Positions 47,292 through 60,948 of a stretch of DNA of 64,000 nt are shown here, piece by piece. Origin of the DNA: Mesorhizobium sp. (lineage in GTDB: Bacteria > Pseudomonadota > Alphaproteobacteria > Rhizobiales > Rhizobiaceae); contig SAQE01000023.1 in the NCBI GenBank assembly GCA_004020545.1, forward strand, positions 1 to 64,000, written 5' to 3'. Each line of letters starts with the position of its first letter. Positions within the stretch are counted from its first letter, which is position 1. The notes beneath the pieces are model-generated. The model saw only the letters and a program-made list of their open reading frames with translations, was not told where the DNA came from and did no database searches. The position numbers were made by a program, and so were the translations under genes.

Positions 47292-48230
47292 TCACCAGAT
47301 CCAGTCGCCCTTGCCGAGCGCCGATACGGCTTCGACGATGCGGGTGAAGCTCGTGCGCGCCCGGCCGACCGTGTGCCGGGCCCTCAGATAGCCGTGCACC
47401 AGCCCAGGCTCCTCGAACCACCAGGCCCGGCCGCCGGCCGCGACGACGCGGTCGCGATAGGCCTCGCCGTCGGACGACAGCGGGTCGCATTCGGCGGTGA
47501 TCAGCACCGTGGGCGGCAGGTAGGCGAAATCGGCATCGGCGAGCGGATACAAGGTGATGTCGCCGGTCCGGTCAACGCCGCCGGTGCGGATGTGCTTGTA
47601 GAATTCGATATCGCGCGCCGTCAGCATTGGTGCCTCGGCGTGCGTCACATAGGAGCCGCGCGAGTGGTCGCCGCCGAGGCTGGGATAGATCAGCACTTGG
47701 CCGACCGGCTTCTTCACATGGCCGCGCGTGGCATGGGCAACGGCGGCGCAGAGATTGCCGCCGGCGCTGTCGCCGCAAAGCAGGACCGGGCAATCGTAAG
47801 TCCGTGCCGCCCACTCGTAGGCGTCCATGACATCGTCGAAAGCTGCAGGGTGCAGATGTTCCGGCGCCAGCCGGTAGTCGACCGAGACCACCTCGTAGCC
47901 GGTGCGGGCGCAAAGCTCGGCGCAGACATCGTCATGGCTGTCCAGCCCGCCAAGGATGAAACCGCCACCGTGGACATAGAGCACCATCGCGGCCTTGTCC
48001 GGCGCCGCGTTGCGATAGATGCGGATCGGGATGCTGTCGGGCGTGGCGATGGTGGTCGTTTCCGCCGTCACGCCTTGCGGATAGCCGGCAAAGAACTCAC
48101 GGCACATCCGGTCGTAGATCGCGCGCTGATCGGCGATCGTGAAGTCGATCGTGTCCGGCGGATAATAGGAATTGGTCTTCTCGATGAAGGCCCAGGTCTC
48201 GGCGTCGATGAGTTTTTTGTAGTCGGTCAT
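47292..48230 (-). CDS. Alpha/beta hydrolase, hormone-sensitive-lipase family
   Basis: A 312-residue esterase of bacterial family IV. The oxyanion motif is LYVHGGGFILGGLDSHDD (about residues 80-97), the nucleophile LLCGDSAGGNLCAA (about 150), the acid in TAECDPLSSDG (about 250), and the histidine in PGLVHGYLRA (about 282). It hydrolyses short acyl esters. It follows the carnitine/butyrobetaine gene row across a repeat in the same direction, so a role on acylcarnitine or CoA-type esters is conceivable but not shown. The ATG at 48230 starts a family-like MTDYKKLIDAETWAFIEKTN. Confidence 0.9.
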   Translation of the reverse strand: MTDYKKLIDAETWAFIEKTNSYYPPDTIDFTIADQRAIYDRMCREFFAGYPQGVTAETTTIATPDSIPIRIYRNAAPDKAAMVLYVHGGGFILGGLDSHDDVCAELCARTGYEVVSVDYRLAPEHLHPAAFDDVMDAYEWAARTYDCPVLLCGDSAGGNLCAAVAHATRGHVKKPVGQVLIYPSLGGDHSRGSYVTHAEAPMLTARDIEFYKHIRTGGVDRTGDITLYPLADADFAYLPPTVLITAECDPLSSDGEAYRDRVVAAGGRAWWFEEPGLVHGYLRARHTVGRARTSFTRIVEAVSALGKGDWIW

Positions 48231-48447: not shown

Positions 48448-49230
48448 CTATCTGCCCTTCCACACCGGGTCGCGCTTCTCGGCGAACGCCCGGAACCCCT
48501 CCAGATTGTCCTCCGAGCCGTAGAGGATATCAACCGTCGGCAACTGCCTGAGCGTCACCTTGTTCATCGCGTCCTGGAAGGTCAGCGCTTCGGCCACCCG
48601 CGCCGTTTCCTTGATTGCGGCGAAGACCAGCGGCGGGCCGCTGGCCAAGAGCCGCGCGATCTCCCAGACGCGGTCCTCGAGCTTTTCCTTGGGCAGCACC
48701 TCGTTGACCAGGCCCCAACGATGCGCTTCCGCCACATCCATCCAGCGACCGGTGAACAGAAGGTCCATGGCGACGTGATAAGGAATGCGCTTCGGCAGCT
48801 TGATCGTCGCGGCGTCTGCAAGCGTGCCGGCGCGGATTTCGGGCAGCGCGAAGGAGGAATGGTCCGACGCGTAGATCAAGTCGCAGGACAGCGCCAGCTC
48901 GAAGCCGCCGCCCACCGCCATGCCGTTGACGCAGGCGATCACCGGCTTGTTCAAATCGCGCAATTCCTGCAGCCCGGCAAACCCGCCGACGCCATAGTCG
49001 CCGTCGACCGCGTCGCCGGCGGCTGCCGCCTTTAGGTCCCAGCCGGCGCTGAAGAACTTGTCGCCGGCCGTCTTGACGATGGCGACACGCAAGCCGGGAT
49101 CGTCGCGGAACGCCTTGAAGGTCTCGCCCATCAGCCGCGACGTCTTCAAGTCGATGGCGTTGGCCTTCGGCCGATCGAGCGTGACTTCGAGAACGGTGCC
49201 TTCGCGGCGGGTGGTGATGACGTCAGCCAT
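48448..49230 (-). CDS. Enoyl-CoA hydratase/isomerase, crotonobetainyl-CoA hydratase-like
   Basis: A 260-residue crotonase-fold enzyme. It shows the family core KFFSAGWDLKAAAAGDAVDG, the second oxyanion-hole region PVIACVNGMAVGGGFELALS, and the catalytic region FALPEIRAGTLADAATIKLP followed by GRWMDVAEAHRWGLVNEVLP. The AGWDLK variant is the one found in CaiD-type crotonobetainyl-CoA hydratases. Its place in a carnitine gene row supports hydration of crotonobetainyl-CoA to carnitinyl-CoA. The ATG at 49230 has GGAGAAAAG upstream and overlaps the ligase stop by eight bases. Confidence 0.87.
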   Translation of the reverse strand: MADVITTRREGTVLEVTLDRPKANAIDLKTSRLMGETFKAFRDDPGLRVAIVKTAGDKFFSAGWDLKAAAAGDAVDGDYGVGGFAGLQELRDLNKPVIACVNGMAVGGGFELALSCDLIYASDHSSFALPEIRAGTLADAATIKLPKRIPYHVAMDLLFTGRWMDVAEAHRWGLVNEVLPKEKLEDRVWEIARLLASGPPLVFAAIKETARVAEALTFQDAMNKVTLRQLPTVDILYGSEDNLEGFRAFAEKRDPVWKGR

Positions 49231-51301
49231 TCTTCTTTTCTCCAAGCACAAGCAGGGCATCCGCGATCCAGGCGCCCTTGCCTTCGGCGCAGACGATCAG
49301 CGGGTTGATGTCGAGCTCTTCGATCTCGACTTCATTCTTCTGCACGAAGTCGGCAATGCCGGCGATGGCGTCGATGGCGGCCGAGACGTCGGCCTTGGGC
49401 CGGCCGCGGTAGCCTTCGAGCAGCGGATAGAGCCGCAATCCACGCAATGCCGCCTCGATGTCGTCGCGCGTCGCCGGCAGCATGAGCGTTACGCTGTCGC
49501 GCAACAGCTCGACCAGCACGCCGCCGGTGCCGAGCGTCATCACCGCGCCGAACATCGGGTCACGGGTGAAGCCGACGATCAGCTCGGCGACGCCGTCGCG
49601 CACCATGCGCTCGGCATAGAGGCCGGTGCCGAGCGGCAACAGGTCATGCGCGGCATTGCTGACGGATTCGGCATCCTTGAGGTTCAGCCGCACGGCGCCG
49701 ACTTCCGACTTGTGGGTCACGCCGAGCGCTTTCAGCGCCACCGGGAAGCCGAGCGCCATCGACGAGATCACCGCCTCGACCGCGTTGGAGGCGCGCTCGC
49801 CCTTCGGCACCGGCAGGCCGGCCCCGATCAGACGCGCCTTGGCCTCGGCCTCGTCGGGCGTGATATGATCTCCGTCCGTCGCACCGGCGGCAGACGTGTC
49901 GACCGGCTGCGCCTGCGGCTCGCGCCAGGCCCAGCCGATGAAGGCGGCGGCTTGAGCGGCGTCCATGGCTTCCGAAATGCCGAACAACGGCACCATGCCG
50001 CGCGCCATCAGCCCGGCGGTGTATTCCTCCGGCAGGTTTTCCGGCAGCGAGGAGACGATGGCGCCCTGCGCCCTGTTGGTCTTCAGCGCCGCCTCGAAGG
50101 CGCGCAGCGTCGCCCACCAGTCGGTGTCCGAGCAGCGGTCAGGCCGCGGGAAATCGAGCACCAGCATGTTGAGATCGAAGCCGCCCGACACCATGGCGGT
50201 GAAGGTGGCCGTCATCGCCGGCTCGTTGTTCCAGATGAAGGTGTGGTAGTCGAGCGGATTGGCGACCGCCACCAGCGGGCCGAGCGTCGATTTGACATGG
50301 GCGCGATGCTCGGCCGTCAGCGTTGGGAAATGCACCCAGCGGCCTTCGGCGCTGTCGGCCATCACGGAGGCCTCGCCGCCGGAACAGCTCATCGACGACA
50401 GCTTGTAGCCGGGCAATGGCCCGGTAATGTGCAAGAGCTTCAGCGCCTCGATGAAAGCCGGAATGGAATCGACGCGCGCGATGCCGAGCCGCTTCAGGAA
50501 GGCGCCTGAGGCGGTGTCAGAGCCGGCGAGCGAGGCCGTGTGCGACACCGTCGCCTGTCTCGCCTGTTCCGAGCGGCCGACCTTCATGGCGATGATCGGC
50601 TTTTTCAACTCGCGGGCTCTCGCAGCCAGCCTCTCGAAGCCGGCTACCGAGTCGAAAGCCTCGATATGCAGGCCGAGCGACGTGACGCGTTCGTCCTCGA
50701 TCAGACCGAGCGCCATTTCGGAGAGGCCGGTCTGCGCCTGGTTACCGGCCGTCATCAGGAAGGCCATCGGCAGGCCGCGCTTCTGCATCGTCATATTGAT
50801 GGCGATGTTGGAGGACTGGGTGATGATGGCGACGCCCTTGCCGCCCTCCGGCAACCGGATCCCGCCGTGCTGGTCGGGCCACAACAGCGCGCCGTCGGCA
50901 TAGTTGATCAGGCCATAGCAGTTGGGGCCGATGATCGGCATCTGGCCAGCGGCGGCGACGAGCTCGGCCTGCAGCCGCTCGCCGTCCTCGTCATAGGCCT
51001 CGGTCTCTAGGAAGCCGGCGGCAAAGCAGACGGCGCCGCCGGCGCCGCGTTCAGCCAGCGCCTTGACCACCTCGATGGTGAGATGCCGGTTGACGCCGAC
51101 AAAGGCGGCGTCCGGCGCACCCGGCAGATCGGCGACGGAGCGGTAGGCCTTGCGGCCGGCGACTTCGTCCTTCGTCGGATGCACCGGCCAGATTTCGCCG
51201 GCAAAGCCCATCTTGATCGACTGCGCCACGACGGCGGCGGCCTGCGCCCCGCCGAACACGGCGATCGATTTCGGGCGCAGGAGACGTTCGAGTTTATGCA
51301 T
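49223..51301 (-). CDS. NDP-forming acyl-CoA synthetase (acetate-CoA ligase family)
   Basis: A 692-residue single-chain ligase. Domain order: CoA-binding (KLERLLRPKSIAVFGGAQAA, residues 2-130), two succinyl-CoA-ligase-like domains (about 145-450) with the phospho-histidine region ATVSHTASLAGSDTASGAFL, then a C-terminal ATP-grasp domain (about 475-692) with GFPVALKALGVTHKSEVGAV and ELIVGFTRDPMFGAVMTLGT. Such enzymes activate acids with CoA while forming ADP. Here the gene stands where carnitine pathways usually have an AMP-forming CaiC-type ligase, so gamma-butyrobetaine or a related acid is the inferred substrate. ATGs at 51301 and 51307 both possible; spacing favours 51301. Confidence 0.88.
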   Translation of the reverse strand: MHKLERLLRPKSIAVFGGAQAAAVVAQSIKMGFAGEIWPVHPTKDEVAGRKAYRSVADLPGAPDAAFVGVNRHLTIEVVKALAERGAGGAVCFAAGFLETEAYDEDGERLQAELVAAAGQMPIIGPNCYGLINYADGALLWPDQHGGIRLPEGGKGVAIITQSSNIAINMTMQKRGLPMAFLMTAGNQAQTGLSEMALGLIEDERVTSLGLHIEAFDSVAGFERLAARARELKKPIIAMKVGRSEQARQATVSHTASLAGSDTASGAFLKRLGIARVDSIPAFIEALKLLHITGPLPGYKLSSMSCSGGEASVMADSAEGRWVHFPTLTAEHRAHVKSTLGPLVAVANPLDYHTFIWNNEPAMTATFTAMVSGGFDLNMLVLDFPRPDRCSDTDWWATLRAFEAALKTNRAQGAIVSSLPENLPEEYTAGLMARGMVPLFGISEAMDAAQAAAFIGWAWREPQAQPVDTSAAGATDGDHITPDEAEAKARLIGAGLPVPKGERASNAVEAVISSMALGFPVALKALGVTHKSEVGAVRLNLKDAESVSNAAHDLLPLGTGLYAERMVRDGVAELIVGFTRDPMFGAVMTLGTGGVLVELLRDSVTLMLPATRDDIEAALRGLRLYPLLEGYRGRPKADVSAAIDAIAGIADFVQKNEVEIEELDINPLIVCAEGKGAWIADALLVLGEKKNG

Positions 51302-51364
51302 GGTCATCTTTTCGTTTGAGCACGATCTTTCCCGGAACCGGACCCGGTCTGGGGCGATCATGCT

Positions 51365-52528
51365 CTAAGCCCCGAACGGACGCAGCAACGCCCGCGAAAT
51401 AATATGTCGCTGAATCTCCGAAGTGCCTTCCCAGATGCGCTCGACGCGCGCGTCGCGCCAGATGCGCTCCAGCGGCAGGTCGTCCATCAACCCCATGCCG
51501 CCATGGATCTGGATGGCTTCGTCGGCAACGAAGGCGAGCATCTCGGTGGCCTTCAGCTTGGCCATCGCCATGTCCTGGTCGGTGACGGTGCCCTGATCGT
51601 ATTTCCAGCCAGCTTCGAACACCATCAAATCGGCCGCCTTCAGCTCCGTCGCCATATCGGCGAGCTTGAAGGAGACGCCCTGGAACTTGCCGATCTGCTG
51701 GCCGAACTGCTGTCGCTGCGCTGCATATTCGATGGCGTGCGAAAGCGCCCGCTCGGCACGGCCGAGGCAGGTCGCGCCGACCTGGAGCCGTGTCGCGCCG
51801 AGCCACGAGTTCGCCACCTCGAAACCCTTGTGCACTTCGCCGAGCACCTGGGAAGCCGGCAGCCTGCAGTCGTCGAATTCGAGGATCGAGTTGGTGTAGC
51901 CGCGATGTGAGACATTGCGATACCCGTCGCGCACCGAGAAACCCTTGGTGCCCTTGTCGACGAAGAAGGCGGTGATCTTCTTGCGCTTGCCGTGCGGCGA
52001 ATCCTCTTCGCCCGAAGCCATGAAGACGATTGCAAAATCGGCGATGTCGGCATGGCTGATGAAATGCTTGGTGCCGTTGAGCACCCAGTCCGAGCCGTCC
52101 TGAACGGCGGTCGCCTTCATGCCGCGCAGGTCTGAGCCGGCGCCGGGCTCGGTCATCGCCAGGCAGTCCCACTTCTCGCCGCGGATGCACGGGAAGAGAT
52201 ACTTTTCCCGCTGCTCCGGCGTGCCGGCGAGCAGGATGTTGGACGGGCGCGCCACGCAGGTCCAATGCAGCGCGTAATTGGCGCGGCCTAGCTCCTTCTC
52301 GTAGAGCAGCCAGCTCACCGTATCGAGACCCGCGCCGCCGACATCGGCCGGCATGTTGGCCGCGTAGAGTCCGGCTTCGATCGCCTTGGCCTTCAGCTCC
52401 TCGATCAGCTCGCGGCGCAGCACGCCGGTACGCTCGACCTCGTGTTCATGCGGGTAAAGCTCGTTCTCGACGAAGGCGCGCGTCGTCTCGACGATGAGCT
52501 TCTGTTCTTCCGAGAGACCGAAATGCAT
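51365..52528 (-). CDS. Acyl-CoA dehydrogenase, gamma-butyrobetainyl-CoA dehydrogenase-like
   Basis: A 387-residue FAD-dependent dehydrogenase. Motifs: N-terminal LSEEQKLIVETTRAFVENEL, the FAD-contact CLAMTEPGAGSDLRGMKATA, GYRNVSHRGYTNSILEFDDC, the middle helix QQFGQQIGKFQGVSFKLADM, and the catalytic glutamate region RIWEGTSEIQRHIISRALL (about residues 360-378). It desaturates an acyl-CoA, passing electrons to ETF. In context it should act on gamma-butyrobetainyl-CoA giving crotonobetainyl-CoA, as CaiA/BcoC-like enzymes do in either direction. It is four bases after the carnitine dehydrogenase stop. Confidence 0.9.
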   Translation of the reverse strand: MHFGLSEEQKLIVETTRAFVENELYPHEHEVERTGVLRRELIEELKAKAIEAGLYAANMPADVGGAGLDTVSWLLYEKELGRANYALHWTCVARPSNILLAGTPEQREKYLFPCIRGEKWDCLAMTEPGAGSDLRGMKATAVQDGSDWVLNGTKHFISHADIADFAIVFMASGEEDSPHGKRKKITAFFVDKGTKGFSVRDGYRNVSHRGYTNSILEFDDCRLPASQVLGEVHKGFEVANSWLGATRLQVGATCLGRAERALSHAIEYAAQRQQFGQQIGKFQGVSFKLADMATELKAADLMVFEAGWKYDQGTVTDQDMAMAKLKATEMLAFVADEAIQIHGGMGLMDDLPLERIWRDARVERIWEGTSEIQRHIISRALLRPFGA

Positions 52529-52532
52529 CGCC

Positions 52533-53645
52533 TCAGCCCTTCTTCTCGCTCTTCTTCGCCTTTGCGGGCTTGTCAGCTTTTGCCGGCTTCGCGGCCTTCT
52601 TCGCCGGCTTGGCCGCCTTAGCCTTTGCGGGGACCGGCTTCTTCGCTGCCAGCTTGGCGAGCCGGTTCGTATACTCCTTGTGCAAGGCGCCGGCGCCCCA
52701 GCCCTTGCCCTTGTTCTGCTTCGACAGCGCTTCCATGATCGCGACCAGATTGTCGTCGCGGATCTTTTCCAGCTCGCGGATCGACAGCCCGTTCGCCTGC
52801 TCGTCCGACTGCGTGGCGATCAGGTCGACCAGCTCGTCGTTGAACTCCGGCACGTCCATCAGCTTGGTCCACGGCCACTTCAGGCAGGGCCCGAACTGCG
52901 CCATGAAGTGGCGCATGCCGGCTTCGCCGCCGGCGACGCGATAGACCTGGAACATGCCCATCTGCGCCCAGCGCAAGCCGAAGGAATAGCGCATGATGTC
53001 GTCGAGTTCCTCGACGGTGCAGATGCCATCTTTGACCAGCCACAACGCCTCGCGCCAGGCGGCCTCCAGCAGACGATCGCCGACGAAGGCCTCGATCTCC
53101 TTGCGCACCACCACCGGCTTCATGCCGATCGAGGCGTAGAGCTCCTTGGCGACCTCGATCGCCTCCGGGAAGGTCTGCTGGCCGCCGACGATCTCGACCA
53201 GCGGCAAGAGATAAACCGGGTTGAACGGATGACCGACGACCAGCCGCTCCGGATGCTTCTTCATCGCCACCTGCATGTCGGTCGGCTTGATGCCGGAGGT
53301 CGAGGACCCGACGATTGCGTTGGCCGGCGCGTGCAGGTCGATCTCGGCAAGCACCCTGTGCTTGAGGTCGAGCCGCTCCGGCACGCTTTCCTGGATGAAG
53401 TCGGCGTCGGCCACCGCTTCGGCGATGGTCTTGGCGAAGGTGAGCTTGCCTTCCTTCGGCAGGCCGCCGGGCAGCATCTGCTTGTAGGCGCGCCGTGCGC
53501 CCTTCATCACCTCGCCGACCTTGCGGGAGGCCTCGGGATCAGGATCGAAGATCGACACATCGATGCCGTTCAAGAGCAGGCGGGCCACCCAGCCGGCGCC
53601 GATGACGCCGCCGCCGATGGTGGCCGCCTTGTTGATGATGCTCAT
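52533..53645 (-). CDS. lcdH: L-carnitine 3-dehydrogenase (3-hydroxyacyl-CoA dehydrogenase fold)
   Basis: A 370-residue NAD-dependent dehydrogenase. The Rossmann motif is TIGGGVIGAGWVARLLLNGI (residues 9-28), IQESVPERLDLKHRVLAEID follows, the catalytic-histidine region is VVGHPFNPVYLLPLVEIVGG, and the C-terminal domain has GICTVEELDDIMRYSFGLRW. These are typical of carnitine dehydrogenase, which makes 3-dehydrocarnitine. Sinorhizobium-type enzymes carry a fused thioesterase; here the core ends near 330 and is followed by a lysine/alanine/proline-rich tail (KPAKKAAKPAKADKPAKAKK), not an enzyme domain. The ATG at 53645 follows the HD gene stop by two bases. Confidence 0.9.
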   Translation of the reverse strand: MSIINKAATIGGGVIGAGWVARLLLNGIDVSIFDPDPEASRKVGEVMKGARRAYKQMLPGGLPKEGKLTFAKTIAEAVADADFIQESVPERLDLKHRVLAEIDLHAPANAIVGSSTSGIKPTDMQVAMKKHPERLVVGHPFNPVYLLPLVEIVGGQQTFPEAIEVAKELYASIGMKPVVVRKEIEAFVGDRLLEAAWREALWLVKDGICTVEELDDIMRYSFGLRWAQMGMFQVYRVAGGEAGMRHFMAQFGPCLKWPWTKLMDVPEFNDELVDLIATQSDEQANGLSIRELEKIRDDNLVAIMEALSKQNKGKGWGAGALHKEYTNRLAKLAAKKPVPAKAKAAKPAKKAAKPAKADKPAKAKKSEKKG

Positions 53646-53647
53646 GG

Positions 53648-54271
53648 TCAGGCTCCGGTTCTTGTCTTGGCTGTTTCGGGATCGGTAAGCGGCACACGCT
53701 CGCCGGCGCGGATCACCGCGGGGTCGTAGGCCTTGCGCGCGAAGACTTCGAGCACGAAGGGCCGGAAGAACTCGATCGGCAGCGTGTCGTAGTCGGGGTC
53801 GAAGCTCGACTGGTCCCAGCGCTCGCAGAACTGGTCGCAATCGTCGAAATAAAGGTGGCCGGCGAAGCGGTCGCGGGCATGCCGGTTGCCGCCGAGATGG
53901 TGGGCGTAATAGAGGCGCTGGAAGTCGCCGTGCTTTTCCACCACCCAGGTGCATTGCTCGCGCACGAAAGGCTTCAGGATCGTGGCGGCATATTCGTCGT
54001 GATTGTAAGGCGCGTAGATGTCGCCAATGTCGTGCAGCAGCGCCGAGACGATCCAGTCTATGTCGGCGCCGTCGCGCCACGCGCGTGTCGCCGCCTGCAG
54101 CGAATGGCCGAGCCGGGTGATCTTGTAGCCGGATAAACCCTGATCGAGCTGCACCAGGGCGTCAAGCAGCCGGTCGCCGGTCTTGGCGGCATAGTCGATC
54201 TCATGGGCGGTCAGGAATTCATAGTCTTCCTTGTCGCCGTCCTTCATCGCGGTGAATTTGACGGTAGCCAT
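53648..54271 (-). CDS. HD-domain protein, possible mixed-valent di-iron oxygenase
   Basis: A 207-residue HD-superfamily protein. Candidate metal ligands are H56 (GHSLQ), H80-D81 (LLHDIGD), H91 (YNHDEYAA) and H114 (VEKHGDF), with a glutamine at 59. The H-x2-Q arrangement and short length are like PhnZ and TmpB, HD-type oxygenases, the latter acting on a trimethylammonio-substituted phosphonate. A phosphohydrolase role remains possible. It lies between the dehydrocarnitine-cleaving enzyme and carnitine dehydrogenase with gaps of 14 and 2 bases, so it belongs to the quaternary-amine pathway. The ATG at 54271 gives a family-like N-terminus. Confidence 0.8.
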   Translation of the reverse strand: MATVKFTAMKDGDKEDYEFLTAHEIDYAAKTGDRLLDALVQLDQGLSGYKITRLGHSLQAATRAWRDGADIDWIVSALLHDIGDIYAPYNHDEYAATILKPFVREQCTWVVEKHGDFQRLYYAHHLGGNRHARDRFAGHLYFDDCDQFCERWDQSSFDPDYDTLPIEFFRPFVLEVFARKAYDPAVIRAGERVPLTDPETAKTRTGA

Positions 54272-54285
54272 GGTCAGCTCCCGCC

Positions 54286-55203
54286 TTATGCCGCGATCGG
54301 CGCCCGCTTGGTGAGGTTGAGCTTCTTGCGCACTTCTTCCGGCCCAAGGATCCTGGCGCCGAGATTGGTGACGATGCTGGCGGCGCGCTCGACGAGCTGC
54401 GCGTTGGTCGCCAGCACGCCCTTGTCCAGCCAGAGATTGTCTTCCAGGCCGACGCGGACATTGCCGCCCGCAAGCACCGCCGCAGCGGCATAGGCCATCT
54501 GGTTGCGGCCGATCGAGAAGGCCGACCAGTTCCAGGTCGAGGGCACGTTGTTGACCATCGCCATGAAGGTGTTGAGGTCGTCCGGCGCGCCCCATGGCAC
54601 GCCCATGCAGAGCTGCACCAGCGCGTCCGGCTTCAGCACCTGTTCCTCGACCAGTTGCTTGGCGAACCACAGATGGCCGGTGTCGAAGGCTTCGATCTCA
54701 GGCTTGACGCCCAGCGCCGTCATCATGCCGCCCATGGCGCGCAGCATGCCGGGCGTGTTGGTCATGACATAGTCGGCCTCGGCGAAGTTCATCGTGCCGC
54801 AATCCAGCGTGCAGATCTCCGGCAGGCACTGGCGGACGTGCTCCATGCGGTTGGTCGCGCCGCCCATGTCGGTGCCTTTTTCGTTGAGCGGCAGCGGCGC
54901 CTCCGGCGAACCGAACACCATGTCGCCGCCCATGCCGGCGGTGAGGTTCAGCACCACGTCGACATTCGCCTCACGGATGCGCTCGGTCACCTCGCGGTAT
55001 AGGTGCACGTCGCGCCTCGGCTTGCCGGTTTCGGGGTCGCGCACATGGCAATGGACAATTGCGGCACCCGCCTTGGCGGCCTCGATCGCCGAATCGGCGA
55101 TCTGCTTGGGCGAGCGCGGCACGTGCGGGCTGCGGTCCTGGGTGCCGCCGGAGCCCGTCACGGCACAGGTAATGAAGACCTCACGGTTCATCGCGAGCGG
55201 CAT
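54286..55203 (-). CDS. Dehydrocarnitine cleavage enzyme (BKACE/DUF849 family)
   Basis: A 305-residue beta-keto acid cleavage enzyme with a TIM-barrel fold. Motifs: REVFITCAVTGSGGTQDRSP, the zinc-binding AAIVHCHVRDPETGKPRRD (about residues 48-66), LNLTAGMGGDMVFG, CTLDCGTMNFAE, and GGNVRVGLEDNLWLDKG near the C-terminus with further zinc ligands upstream. BKACE enzymes use acetyl-CoA to split a beta-keto acid; in carnitine operons they convert 3-dehydrocarnitine plus acetyl-CoA to betainyl-CoA plus acetoacetate. The ATG at 55203 has GGGAGGAAAG before it. First gene of the row, divergent from the regulator. Confidence 0.92.
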   Translation of the reverse strand: MPLAMNREVFITCAVTGSGGTQDRSPHVPRSPKQIADSAIEAAKAGAAIVHCHVRDPETGKPRRDVHLYREVTERIREANVDVVLNLTAGMGGDMVFGSPEAPLPLNEKGTDMGGATNRMEHVRQCLPEICTLDCGTMNFAEADYVMTNTPGMLRAMGGMMTALGVKPEIEAFDTGHLWFAKQLVEEQVLKPDALVQLCMGVPWGAPDDLNTFMAMVNNVPSTWNWSAFSIGRNQMAYAAAAVLAGGNVRVGLEDNLWLDKGVLATNAQLVERAASIVTNLGARILGPEEVRKKLNLTKRAPIAA

Positions 55204-55338
55204 CGTCTTTCCTCCCAAATTCGATCAGCCATGCATGTCGCCCAAACTGGGAACCGGTTTTGGGAAAACGACATGCACCGAAACTACTCCAACAATGACC
55301 GACTTGCCGGAAACTGTTTTGCGTTTTACGAAGCCATC

Positions 55339-56319
55339 ATGACTAAAAGCGAAAAGCCGACGATCTTTCGTGCCGAGCATGAAACACTCAAGGTGACGTT
55401 CCTGGTGTTCTCGGGCGCGTCGATCATGTGCGTCGCCTCGGCCGTCGATCCGCTGCGCGCCGCAAACCGCATTTCCGGCGAGACGCTGTTCGATTTCAAG
55501 CTGGTCTCGGTCACCGGAGAGGCGCCGGTGACAACATGCGGCCTGCCGGTTGCCGTCAGCGGGCGCTTCGATGCCGCCGAGCCGACCGACATGCTGGTTG
55601 TCGTCGCCGGCTTCGGCACGCAGAACTACGCCACCGCCGCGCTGCTTGCCGGTCTGCGTAGGGCAGCTCGCGCGGCCCGCGCCTGCGGTGGTGTCGAGGC
55701 GGGCACCTGGCTGGTCGCGCGCGCCGGGCTGCTCGAGGGCCGCAGCGCCACCACGCATTGGGAAGACATGGAGGATTTCTCCGCCGCCTTTCCCGGCGTC
55801 GACGTGCGACCTGACCGCTATGTCATCGACGGGCCGGTCTTCACCTCCGGCGGCGCCTCGCCGACCTTCGACCTGATGCTGCATCTGGTCCGCACCAGAC
55901 TCGGCATGGCCGCCGCTCTCGATGTGGCGAGCGTCTTCATCTACGACCAGGCGCGCGCCGCGACCGACGCGCAGCCGCTGGTCTCGCTCGGCCGGCTCGA
56001 CGGCTACGATCCGCGGCTGGCGCAGGCGATCCGGCTGATGGAAGCGCATGTCGACCAGCCGTTGACCATCGATGCGGTGGCCAAGCGCGCCGGCGTGACG
56101 GCGCGAACGCTGGAGAGCATTTTTCGCAAGTCGATCGGCGAGACGCCGGGCGCCTATTATCTGCGGCTCCGCCTCAGCGCCGCCCGCCGCTTGGTGGTCG
56201 ACACGCGCATCGCCATGGCTGACATTGCCGGGCGCACAGGGTTTTCGTCCGCAGCCGCGTTTTCCCGGGCGTTTTCCAGGGCTTTTGGCGAGGCGCCGGT
56301 CAGGCTGCGGCGCGGCTGA
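55339..56319 (+). CDS. GlxA family transcriptional regulator, CdhR-like
   Basis: A 326-residue regulator with an N-terminal DJ-1/PfpI-like domain (FLVFSGASIMCVASAVDPLR to about residue 190) and a C-terminal AraC double helix-turn-helix (LTIDAVAKRAGVTARTLESI and IADIAGRTGFSSAAAFSRAF-type, residues about 225-320). The layout is that of CdhR and GbdR, which regulate carnitine and betaine catabolism. It is divergent from the dehydrocarnitine cleavage gene with 135 bases between starts. The frame is open upstream, but the ATG at 55339 gives the family's usual start. It overlaps the end of the HAD gene by 20 bases. Confidence 0.9.
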   Translation: MTKSEKPTIFRAEHETLKVTFLVFSGASIMCVASAVDPLRAANRISGETLFDFKLVSVTGEAPVTTCGLPVAVSGRFDAAEPTDMLVVVAGFGTQNYATAALLAGLRRAARAARACGGVEAGTWLVARAGLLEGRSATTHWEDMEDFSAAFPGVDVRPDRYVIDGPVFTSGGASPTFDLMLHLVRTRLGMAAALDVASVFIYDQARAATDAQPLVSLGRLDGYDPRLAQAIRLMEAHVDQPLTIDAVAKRAGVTARTLESIFRKSIGETPGAYYLRLRLSAARRLVVDTRIAMADIAGRTGFSSAAAFSRAFSRAFGEAPVRLRRG

Positions 56320-57540: not shown

Positions 57541-57564
57541 GTGTAAGGGCGAGCGCCCTTACAC
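57541..57564. terminator. Stem-loop at the xylA stop codon
   Basis: GTGTAAGGGC (57541-57550) and GCCCTTACAC (57555-57564) form a perfect 10-base stem with a four-base loop; the xylA TAA lies within the stem. No T-run follows on the minus strand, so it may stabilise the mRNA end rather than terminate by itself. Confidence 0.55.
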
Positions 57565-58884
57565 GTAGCGGTTGACGATGTTCTCCAGCAGCTCCTGCCG
57601 GCCGGAGCGCGGCTGCGGCTCGATCTTCTTCTTCACCACGCGCTCGGCGATCTCCTCCAGCGTGCGCTTGCCGGAAAGCATCGCCTTGCCCTCGGCCGTG
57701 TTCCAGCCGGCATAGCGTTCGGCGAGCGGGCCGGACAGCGCCTTGTCCTCGATCATTTTCGCGGCCGCCTTGAGGCCGCGCGCGCAGGCGTCCATGCCGC
57801 CGATATGGCCGATCAGCAGGTCTTCGGGGTCGAGCGATTGGCGCCGAAGCTTGGCGTCGAAATTGGTGCCGCCGGTCTTGAAGCCGCCGCCCAGCAGGAC
57901 CTGGTAATAGGCCAAAGCCATTTCCGGCACGTTGTTGGGGAACTGGTCGGTGTCCCAGCCCGACTGGTAGTCGTTGCGGTTCATGTCGATCGAGCCGAAG
58001 ATGCCGAGCGCGTTGGCCAAACCCAGTTCGTGCTCGAAGGAATGGCCGGCGAGGATGGCGTGGCCCTGCTCGATGTTGAGCTTGACCTCCTTCTCCAGCC
58101 CGAAGCGCTTAAGGAAGCCGTAGACGGTAGCGACATCGTAGTCGTACTGGTGCTTGGTCGGCTCCTGCGGCTTCGGCTCGATCAGAATCGTACCCTTGAA
58201 GCCTATTTTGTGCTTGTAGTCGACGACGAGGTTGAGGAAGCGGCCGGCCTGCTCCTGCTCGCGCGCAAGGTCGGTATTGAGCAGCGTCTCATAGCCTTCG
58301 CGCCCGCCCCACAGCACATAGTTCTCGCCCTTCAGCTTCTTGGTCACATCGATGCACTTCTTCACCGTCGCCGCCGCATAGGCGAACACGTCCGGATCGG
58401 GATTGGTGGCCGCGCCCGACATGAAGCGGCGATGCGAGAAGAGGTTCGCCGTGCCCCAGAGCAGCTTGACGCCGGTCTGTTTCATCTTGGCCGAAAAATA
58501 ATCGGCGATCTCGTCAAGGCGCGCGGCGCTCTCGGAGAAATCCTTGCCCTCGGGGCGGACGTCGGCGTCGTGGAAGCAGAAATAGGGGGCGCCGAGTAGC
58601 GAGAACATCTCGAAGGCCACGTCGGCCTTGAGCTTCGCCAGGTCCATCGTGTCGACGCCGCCGGGCTTGGCGAACCAGGGGCGGTCGAAGGTCTGGCCGC
58701 CGAACGGGTCGCCGCCCTGCCAGGCGAAGGAATGCCAGTAGGCGACGGCGAAGCGCAGATGGTCTTCCAGCCGCTTGCCGGCCACGACCTCGTCCGGGTT
58801 GTAGAACCGGTAGGCCAGCGGATTGGTCGAATCCGGCCCCTCATATTTGATCTTCTTGATGTCGCCGAAAAATACGCTGCTCAT
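57559..58884 (-). CDS. xylA: Xylose isomerase
   Basis: A 441-residue class II xylose isomerase. Motifs: [36 protein letters not shown] with catalytic histidine and aspartate, [36 protein letters not shown], the metal ligand region [36 protein letters not shown] and [19 protein letters not shown]. It converts xylose to xylulose. GGAGAGGAAGG precedes the ATG. A TTTCG-N5-CGAAA palindrome lies about 60 bases upstream. Confidence 0.97.
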
Positions 58885-59493: not shown

Positions 59494-60948
59494 TCACGCG
59501 GTTACCGCCCTGATCGCCGGATAAAGCGCGCGGTAGCGCTGATAGGCATCCGCGAAGGCGCCGCCGAGGCCGGCATCCGGTTCGATCGTGGCGTCGGTCG
59601 CCGGCGCGGTGCAGACGGCAAGCGGATCGGCACTAGTCGCGGCGATCAGGCCGAGGCGCGCCGCGCCGAAGGCGGCGCCGAAATCGCCGTCGGCCGGAAT
59701 GTCGACCGGCAGCTGAAGCGCGGTGGCGATCGCCTTCAGCCAGTAGCGCGAACGCGAGCCGCCGCCGATCGCGGTCACTCGGCTAAGCGTCGTGCCGGCC
59801 GTCTTCAGCGCTTCGAGACTGTCGCGGAAGGCGAAGGCGACGCCTTCGAGCACGGCCTGCGTCAGCACCGCGCGGCTCGATTGATGCGCCAGCCCGGTGA
59901 ACGACCCGCGGATGGCGGAATCGTTGTGCGGCGTGCGCTCACCCGAGAGATAAGGCAGGAAGGTGACGCCCGTCGGCGCCTTGAGTGTGTCGCCGAGCTC
60001 GCCGGTCAGGTCGCCGGCGCCTTTGCCGGTGATCTCCGACAGCCAGTTGAGCGAATCGGTGGCCGACAGAATGACGCCCATCTGGTGCCAGGTGGCGGGC
60101 AGCGCATGGCAGAACGTGTGCACCGCGCTTTCCGGATTGGGCAGATAGGACGCATTGGCGGCGAACAGCACCCCCGACGTGCCGAGCGACACGAAGGCGT
60201 GGCCGGCGCCGACCGTGCCCATGCCGCAGGCCGAAGCCGCATTGTCGCCGGCGCCGCCGGCAACCGGAATGCCGTCCGCGACACCCCATTTCGCCGCGAG
60301 CTCGGTGCGCAAGCCGCCGGCCTTCGCCGTGCCTTCGACCAGCGACGGCATATGCTTCTCGTCGAGCGATGTCGCTGCCAGCAGCTCGGGCGACCAGCGG
60401 CGCTTGCCGACATCGAGCCAGGAGGTGCCGGCCGAATCCGACATTTCCGAAATATGCTCGCCGGTCAGCCAGAGGCGCAGATAGTCTTTTGGCAACAGCA
60501 CCTTGGCCACCTTGGCGAAGATTGCCGGCTCGTTGTTCTTCACCCAGCTGAGCTTTGGCGCCGTGAAGCCCGGAAACACGATGTTGCCGGTGAGCCTGCG
60601 GAAGCGCGGGTCGGCGTCGAGCGCGGCCGCCTCGACATGGCTGCGCGTGTCGTTCCACAGGATGCAGGGGCGCAGCACCTTGTCCGAGGCATCGAGCAGG
60701 GTGGCGCCATGCATCTGGCCGGAAAGGCCGATGCCCCTGGCCGCCGCAAGTTCCTTCGGATGGGAAGCCTTGAGCTCGGCAATCGCCGTCTCGCAGGCCT
60801 CGATCCAGTGCGCCGGATCCTGCTCGGACCAGCCGGGATGCGGGCGCGAGACCTCGAGCGAGCCATGGCCGGAGGCGATGACATTCTGGCGATCATCGAT
60901 CAGCAGCGCCTTGACGCCCGATGTGCCCAGGTCGAGGCCGAGATACAT
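59494..60948 (-). CDS. xylB: Xylulokinase
   Basis: A 484-residue FGGY-family kinase. Motifs: phosphate loop YLGLDLGTSGVKALLIDD (residues 2-19), GLSGQMHGATLLDASDKVLR with the xylulose-kinase MHG, WNDTRSHVEA, catalytic GGAGDNAASACGMGTVG, and FRDSLEALKTAGTTLSRVTA then IGGGSRSRYWLKAIATAL. It phosphorylates xylulose to xylulose-5-phosphate. Its own promoter carries the xyl palindrome 22 bases upstream. It is not in one operon with xylA, since the SnoaL-like gene lies between, in opposite orientation. Confidence 0.96.
   Translation of the reverse strand: MYLGLDLGTSGVKALLIDDRQNVIASGHGSLEVSRPHPGWSEQDPAHWIEACETAIAELKASHPKELAAARGIGLSGQMHGATLLDASDKVLRPCILWNDTRSHVEAAALDADPRFRRLTGNIVFPGFTAPKLSWVKNNEPAIFAKVAKVLLPKDYLRLWLTGEHISEMSDSAGTSWLDVGKRRWSPELLAATSLDEKHMPSLVEGTAKAGGLRTELAAKWGVADGIPVAGGAGDNAASACGMGTVGAGHAFVSLGTSGVLFAANASYLPNPESAVHTFCHALPATWHQMGVILSATDSLNWLSEITGKGAGDLTGELGDTLKAPTGVTFLPYLSGERTPHNDSAIRGSFTGLAHQSSRAVLTQAVLEGVAFAFRDSLEALKTAGTTLSRVTAIGGGSRSRYWLKAIATALQLPVDIPADGDFGAAFGAARLGLIAATSADPLAVCTAPATDATIEPDAGLGGAFADAYQRYRALYPAIRAVTA

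Follow-up and report, generated by a model that had tools for sequence, protein, structure and literature searches.

gamma-Butyrobetainyl-coenzyme A (CoA) has been prepared with the Sinorhizobium meliloti ligase BcoAB, ATP and CoA, with BcoAB as the reagent (PMC8364193), and S. meliloti work cited in PMC12482172 describes a bifunctional carnitine dehydrogenase, SM2011_c01638, that oxidises carnitine and also converts betainyl-CoA into glycine betaine. In Pseudomonas aeruginosa, the caiX-cdhCAB-hocS operon under a divergent CdhR takes carnitine to glycine betaine and includes hocS, a hydrolase gene whose product handles short-chain acylcarnitines (PMC5806209). Here we describe a gene cluster at positions 48448-56319 of a 64,000-nucleotide window (positions 1 to 64,000 of contig SAQE01000023.1, GenBank assembly GCA_004020545.1) from Mesorhizobium sp. 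It is probably a carnitine and gamma-butyrobetaine catabolic operon of the rhizobial kind, with an HD-domain protein as a predicted oxygenase-type accessory enzyme. With the S. meliloti pathway it shares a gamma-butyrobetaine:CoA ligase, putative in Mesorhizobium and perhaps of the same type as BcoAB, and a dehydrogenase linked to the betainyl-CoA step, the bifunctional dehydrogenase being a feature of S. meliloti itself. The P. aeruginosa operon has in common with it the divergent regulator, the direction from carnitine to glycine betaine and an operon-encoded hydrolase, whereas that operon, as named in PMC5806209, contains neither a gamma-butyrobetaine CoA module nor an HD gene. The Escherichia coli cai operon likewise has a crotonobetainyl-CoA hydratase (the best model for the Mesorhizobium enzyme bears that name), but the Mesorhizobium cluster would run in the aerobic catabolic direction and its ligase has no AMP-binding domain. 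The features are as follows.

55339 to 56319, plus strand: CdhR/GbdR-type regulator with a DJ-1/PfpI-like domain and an AraC helix-turn-helix (Pfam DJ-1/PfpI and HTH_18; GbdR model 214.3 bits, cut-off 480).
55204 to 55338, no strand: divergent intergenic region between regulator and BKACE gene, with a palindromic repeat inserted.
54286 to 55203, minus strand: BKACE, putative 3-dehydrocarnitine cleavage enzyme (PF05853, 329.9 bits).
53648 to 54271, minus strand: HD-domain protein of 207 residues, predicted diiron oxygenase on a branch separate from PhnZ and TmpB.
52533 to 53645, minus strand: carnitine 3-dehydrogenase (NF005716) without a C-terminal thioesterase domain, with a Lys/Ala-rich tail instead.
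51365 to 52528, minus strand: acyl-CoA dehydrogenase, probably gamma-butyrobetainyl-CoA dehydrogenase (Acyl-CoA_dh domains and context).
49223 to 51307, minus strand: single-chain NDP-forming acyl-CoA ligase, probably gamma-butyrobetaine:CoA ligase (possible upstream start at 51361).
48448 to 49230, minus strand: crotonobetainyl-CoA hydratase-like enzyme (ECH_1; best NCBIfam model 312 bits, cut-off 500).
47292 to 48230, minus strand: alpha/beta hydrolase (Abhydrolase_3, GDSAG), candidate acylcarnitine hydrolase like HocS.

All six leftward genes named in an earlier, sequence-only reading of this DNA, and the regulator divergent from them, are present with intact frames. Because the gaps in transcription order are 14, 2, 4, 57 and −8 bases, the leftward run is likely one transcript. 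The gene order was conserved in all 16 same-genus genomes fetched, each represented by its best HD match (L089-L104), and the regulator was divergent from the operon in every one. The order was also found at 12 of 14 named Mesorhizobium HD loci (L137-L148), with contig ends cutting the regulator or hydrolase in L138 and L139. The named HD loci comprise the top 80 out of 534 confirmed relatives, so partner frequencies among them lean to close relatives; the closest, 87-97% identical, are the 12 Mesorhizobium loci.

Outside the genus, the plasmids R. etli p42c and R. phaseoli pRphaR630a carry, in the same order, a GlxA-type divergent regulator, BKACE, carnitine dehydrogenase, acyl-CoA dehydrogenase, an NDP-forming ligase (annotated on both as an 'acetate--CoA ligase family' protein) and carnitinyl-CoA dehydratase, and Sinorhizobium sp. 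K101 has this order too. The claim that the Mesorhizobium cluster departs from known CoA routes is therefore unsupported, and the use of an NDP-forming ligase does not make the route new. This ligase shows 56-57% identity over 685-687 residues to those of the Rhizobium and Sinorhizobium clusters (L083, L084 and L079), and BKACE is 76% identical to the R. etli copy. Unlike the Mesorhizobium cluster, those of R. etli and R. phaseoli have a dehydrogenase with a fused thioesterase (496 residues), no HD gene, and an ABC transporter in place of the hydrolase. Across the class, 56 carnitine dehydrogenase loci were drawn from 57 matches besides the source's own; nine held the full set of BKACE, carnitine dehydrogenase, acyl-CoA dehydrogenase, NDP-forming ligase and hydratase, seven of these also with a thioesterase.

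Every reaction of the pathway is one that we infer from sequence. The NDP-forming ligase would convert gamma-butyrobetaine into gamma-butyrobetainyl-CoA, and the acyl-CoA dehydrogenase and hydratase would turn this into carnitinyl-CoA, from which free carnitine would be released. Carnitine dehydrogenase and BKACE would then take carnitine to betainyl-CoA, to be released as glycine betaine, with BKACE combining 3-dehydrocarnitine and acetyl-CoA into betainyl-CoA and acetoacetate. Gene content and families support this course from gamma-butyrobetaine through carnitine to betainyl-CoA, as had been proposed. Specifically, the carnitine 3-dehydrogenase scored 594.9 bits against NF005716 (cut-off 592). 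BKACE, the acyl-CoA dehydrogenase, the hydratase and the regulator stayed below every NCBIfam cut-off among the models listed, so their exact names rest on context. For the acyl-CoA dehydrogenase the best model was acryloyl-CoA reductase, with crotonobetainyl-CoA dehydrogenase in ninth rank; it is a family member by score, and its role is therefore taken from context.

The ligase contains CoA_binding_2, Succ_CoA_lig and ATP-grasp_5 domains in one chain, and Pfam found no AMP-binding domain of the CaiC-type AMP-forming ligase, in agreement with its earlier assignment to the NDP-forming family. Among solved structures it comes closest to the ADP-forming CoA ligases for 4-hydroxybutyrate and 3-hydroxypropionate. 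Additionally, residues 13-677 align with the dimethylsulfoniopropionate (DMSP) lyase 7cm9, an enzyme for another onium carboxylate, and histidines in 'SHT' and 'HKS' stretches align with those of ADP-forming enzymes, which we take to be the phosphorylated ones. Since the one family searched for gamma-butyrobetaine dioxygenase, TIGR02409, gave no convincing match in the source genome (best 21.1 bits), the CoA module appears to be the sole recognised route from gamma-butyrobetaine to carnitine in this strain; 26 of 36 same-genus genomes have such a dioxygenase above the cut-off.

The carnitine dehydrogenase covers profile positions 1-337 of 495 and ends in the Lys/Ala-rich tail, and no thioesterase match stood beside the dehydrogenase in any of the 21 same-genus clusters read. 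The earlier statement that no thioesterase is visible thus holds for the cluster but not for the genome, where a homologue of the thioesterase domain lies on another contig (37% identity over query residues 23-168, in its own short frame, with neighbours that by eye are not carnitine-like). CoA-ester release is probably carried out by an unlinked thioesterase or a reversible ligase, not by a fused domain. ADP-forming CoA ligases are reversible. The ligase itself might accordingly stand in for the thioesterase, setting free both carnitine and glycine betaine from the respective CoA esters while forming ATP, an idea in keeping with its ADP-forming relatives and with the 21 clusters; we hold it to be possible but rather doubtful, as the source genome has its unlinked homologue, each of 36 same-genus genomes searched has at least one thioesterase match, and thioesterase-less clusters without an NDP-forming ligase nearby exist (11 of the 56 dehydrogenase loci, with BKACE alone). 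The HD protein was also considered as a stand-in for the missing thioesterase and rejected: both occur together in Hoeflea (L149), Tabrizicola (L150, L153 and L158) and Pseudotabrizicola (L175), and HD-less Mesorhizobium clusters are likewise without a thioesterase.

The HD protein, listed earlier without comment, is indeed present and is the least explained part of the cluster. Its closest folds are TmpB and PhnZ, and it shares with PhnZ, TmpB and MIOX the fold and the H...HD...H...H...D ligands. PhnZ and TmpB are each paired with a 2-oxoglutarate hydroxylase, as PhnY/PhnZ and TmpA/TmpB (PMC8177086). Family models placed it far below their cut-offs (TIGR03276, 31.6 against 214.6 bits; TmpB, 21.8 against 300; PhnZ1, 29 against 300). 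The YxxE substrate gate is absent, with L46 and Y49 aligned to PhnZ Y24 and E27, and so is the HDxGH histidine (PhnZ H62), where an invariant D84 is found. Two alignments were used, one of 27 hand-picked rows and one of 43 rows (the source protein and 42 of the 80 named loci). R53 and D84 were invariant in all 27 and all 43 rows. Across five groups (carnitine, PhyH, amidohydrolase, TauD and SAR11), the most frequent residue did not change at any of the six ligands or at positions 46, 49, 53 and 84; Y49 was fixed in all five, position 46 reached only 70% in the TauD group, and positions 47, 50, 51 and 55 varied between groups. This sharing fits one substrate class without proving it. A search for residues separating carnitine-type from PhyH-type proteins gave four fixed differences (28, 60, 123 and 132) and no substrate hint, as none is a ligand or position 46, 49, 53 or 84.

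HD matches were found in 122 of 385 genomes sampled from the class, weak ones (E up to 1e-3) included. Among the best 80 relatives, the branch occurs in Alphaproteobacteria, including many Pelagibacteraceae loci (for example L184, L188 and L200-L202), and in some gammaproteobacteria. The protein is repeatedly associated with quaternary-amine genes. Of these 80 loci, 17 are carnitine clusters (12 in Mesorhizobium, the others in Hoeflea, Tabrizicola, Pseudotabrizicola and two Rhodobacteraceae), 15 have the HD gene directly after a PhyH-family hydroxylase, four have it beside a TauD-family hydroxylase, and 44 show neither. The hydroxylase-HD pairs were recognised on closer reading, not by neighbour clustering, and the hydroxylases used as queries were Pfam hits, except one TauD protein (L056) named by eye; L045 and L212 have an identical TauD sequence. 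For three TauD partners the top-scoring model was TmpA (335-355 bits, cut-off 400), followed by gamma-butyrobetaine dioxygenase (259-269, cut-off 414.75). TmpA and PhnY presumably belong to the TauD and PhyH families, respectively. On the P. aeruginosa plasmid pF045_1 (L081), the order is TmpA-like dioxygenase, HD protein, choline-binding protein, choline dehydrogenase and aldehyde dehydrogenase; IS66 genes lie a few kilobases away. Other neighbours of the quaternary-amine type are an MttB-family protein, a BCCT transporter (Marinomonas) and sarcosine oxidase genes. Names of the BCCT, sarcosine oxidase, Rieske, purF, lipocalin, SDR and DUF1203 kind were given by eye, except where families were searched or records annotated. 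Six of 15 plasmid HD copies were annotated, three as HD domain-containing and one each as phosphohydrolase, inositol oxygenase family and hypothetical protein.

In an HD tree of 118 rows, which includes five of the 16 same-genus cluster loci, the carnitine label required two changes, against a mean of 22.2 in 500 shuffles, none of which was as low. One clade of 23 rows (93/86, not starred) unites the carnitine HD proteins that the tree includes from Mesorhizobium, Hoeflea and Rhodobacteraceae. A second HD paralog, 72-75% identical, lies outside the cluster at two named Mesorhizobium loci (L155 and L157) and in the same-genus copies L106 and L107. In Mesorhizobium and Rhizobium (L085, L106, L155 and L157) this paralog stands just after an Amidohydro_2 protein; L085, L155 and L157 have a reductase-like gene nearby, followed in L085 by a choline dehydrogenase-like gene (by eye). 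In two Pelagibacteraceae-like genomes (L046 and L050) the HD gene lies between purF- and glutathione-synthesis-like genes with no hydroxylase partner detected, which says little.

On the basis of fold, metal ligands and partners, we propose a role for the HD protein as a mixed-valent diiron oxygenase. It would oxidatively cleave a trimethylammonium compound that bears a hydroxyl group, most probably carnitine or a closely related molecule, in the direction of glycine betaine. That it is an oxygenase for a hydroxylated quaternary amine is, from sequence, somewhat the better bet. In the pairs, the PhyH or TmpA-like hydroxylase would supply its substrate; in the carnitine operon, the CoA module would do so. 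Carnitine itself as the substrate is a good deal less probable; PhnZ-type chemistry on it would give glycine betaine and glycolate. Other candidate substrates are a 2-hydroxy betaine and the compound formed by decarboxylation of 3-dehydrocarnitine. More speculatively, and in our estimate unlikely, the protein may break carnitine, or a closely related hydroxylated betaine, at a C-C bond, using O2 without a supplied reductant and yielding glycine betaine in a direct reaction. Such a reaction would be an aerobic short cut around carnitine dehydrogenase and BKACE, and SAR11 bacteria would have this enzyme family as well.

Several observations weigh against an oxygenase of carnitine metabolism. A carnitine-using HD protein would compete with the adjacent dehydrogenase. 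In the tree, 61 of the 118 rows had none of the partners looked for, and among the first 40 unnamed HD loci fetched, BKACE and carnitine dehydrogenase occurred together only at L060. The HD protein of that locus, where HD, thioesterase, BKACE and dehydrogenase occur together, sits near SAR11 proteins on a long branch, so the placement of this second carnitine gain is less sure. HD neighbours in general were rejected as a functional guide, in view of that one locus in 40 and the few shared families on clustering. The HD gene is missing from six of 36 same-genus genomes, five of which have an HD-less cluster, and is found at one of the 56 carnitine dehydrogenase loci across the class; the HD protein is therefore accessory, dispensable for the core pathway. 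Elsewhere (L225, L227, L229, L234, L114 and L115), unrelated genes (lipocalin-like, SDR and opposite-strand DUF1203-like, by eye) stand between BKACE and carnitine dehydrogenase, so this may be a site where insertions happen easily. Finally, the invariant R53, three residues ahead of the first ligand histidine, is characteristic of HD phosphohydrolases; YqeK, a dinuclear phosphatase, likewise carries two additional histidines, placed after HD and before the final Asp (PMC8177086). These two features, together with the absent YxxE gate, would suit a dinuclear HD phosphohydrolase of the YqeK or YfbR sort that has a phosphorylated metabolite or a nucleotide as its substrate and is carried along in the carnitine operon; we judge this improbable beside the oxygenase proposal, to which the TmpB and PhnZ folds and the hydroxylase partners point.

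Those same closest folds, and the TauD partners that score best with TmpA, could also mean that the protein acts as TmpB, cleaving the C-P bond of a hydroxylated choline-phosphonate in an operon for mixed quaternary amines. This is quite unlikely given the low TmpB score, D84 in place of the HDxGH histidine, L46 and Y49 at the gate positions, and the finding that none of the eight cluster-region proteins exceeded the cut-off of a phosphonate-gene family. Equally improbable is an acyl-CoA module (ligase, acyl-CoA dehydrogenase and hydratase) that acts on another acid and is merely co-resident with carnitine catabolism: acyl-CoA dehydrogenase and hydratase do fall below specific cut-offs, and Sinorhizobium numidicum has a ligase 85% and a hydratase 86% identical among different neighbours, with no carnitine dehydrogenase in the 26 kb read, but module and carnitine genes co-occur in several families and gamma-butyrobetaine:CoA ligase activity is recorded for BcoAB (PMC8364193). 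The S. numidicum set, on a plasmid (L078), is the closest plasmid copy of both genes. Acyl-CoA dehydrogenases, a PaaI thioesterase and a BKACE-like protein are encoded nearby, and the set may act on a different onium acid.

The carnitine operon is followed, 217 bases downstream of the hydratase gene and outside the interval first described, by the Abhydrolase_3 gene, which adjoins the hydratase in all 16 same-genus HD-bearing clusters (L089-L104). By analogy with HocS, which we assume to be in the same hydrolase family, this esterase probably feeds acylcarnitines into the pathway. At the other end, about 30 bases beside the regulator start look alike by eye in other Mesorhizobium and partly in Hoeflea (11 intergenic regions compared). 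A palindrome upstream of BKACE, with arms at 55233 and up to 55276, was considered as a conserved regulator site and rejected as an interspersed repeat: its 15-base arm has 85 matches in the genome with at most one mismatch, against none for the reversed pattern, and it occurs in three of the 11 regions. Beyond the regulator, xylose isomerase-like (57559-58884) and xylulokinase-like (59494-60948) genes were noted by eye, with no carnitine link seen.

Because the CoA route is already known, what the cluster adds is mainly a variant from Mesorhizobium whose thioesterase lies outside the cluster. The part worth following is the HD protein, which combines an oxygenase fold and ligands with a lack of phosphonate marks. 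A 2020 review named three HD oxygenases, MIOX, PhnZ and TmpB (PMC8177086), to which a later paper added a Gimesia PhnZ; our literature search, with most subscription journals outside its coverage, found no paper that places an HD oxygenase in carnitine metabolism. If the HD protein cleaves hydroxylated betaines, the current view of how carnitine and betaine are turned over in soil and sea would change.

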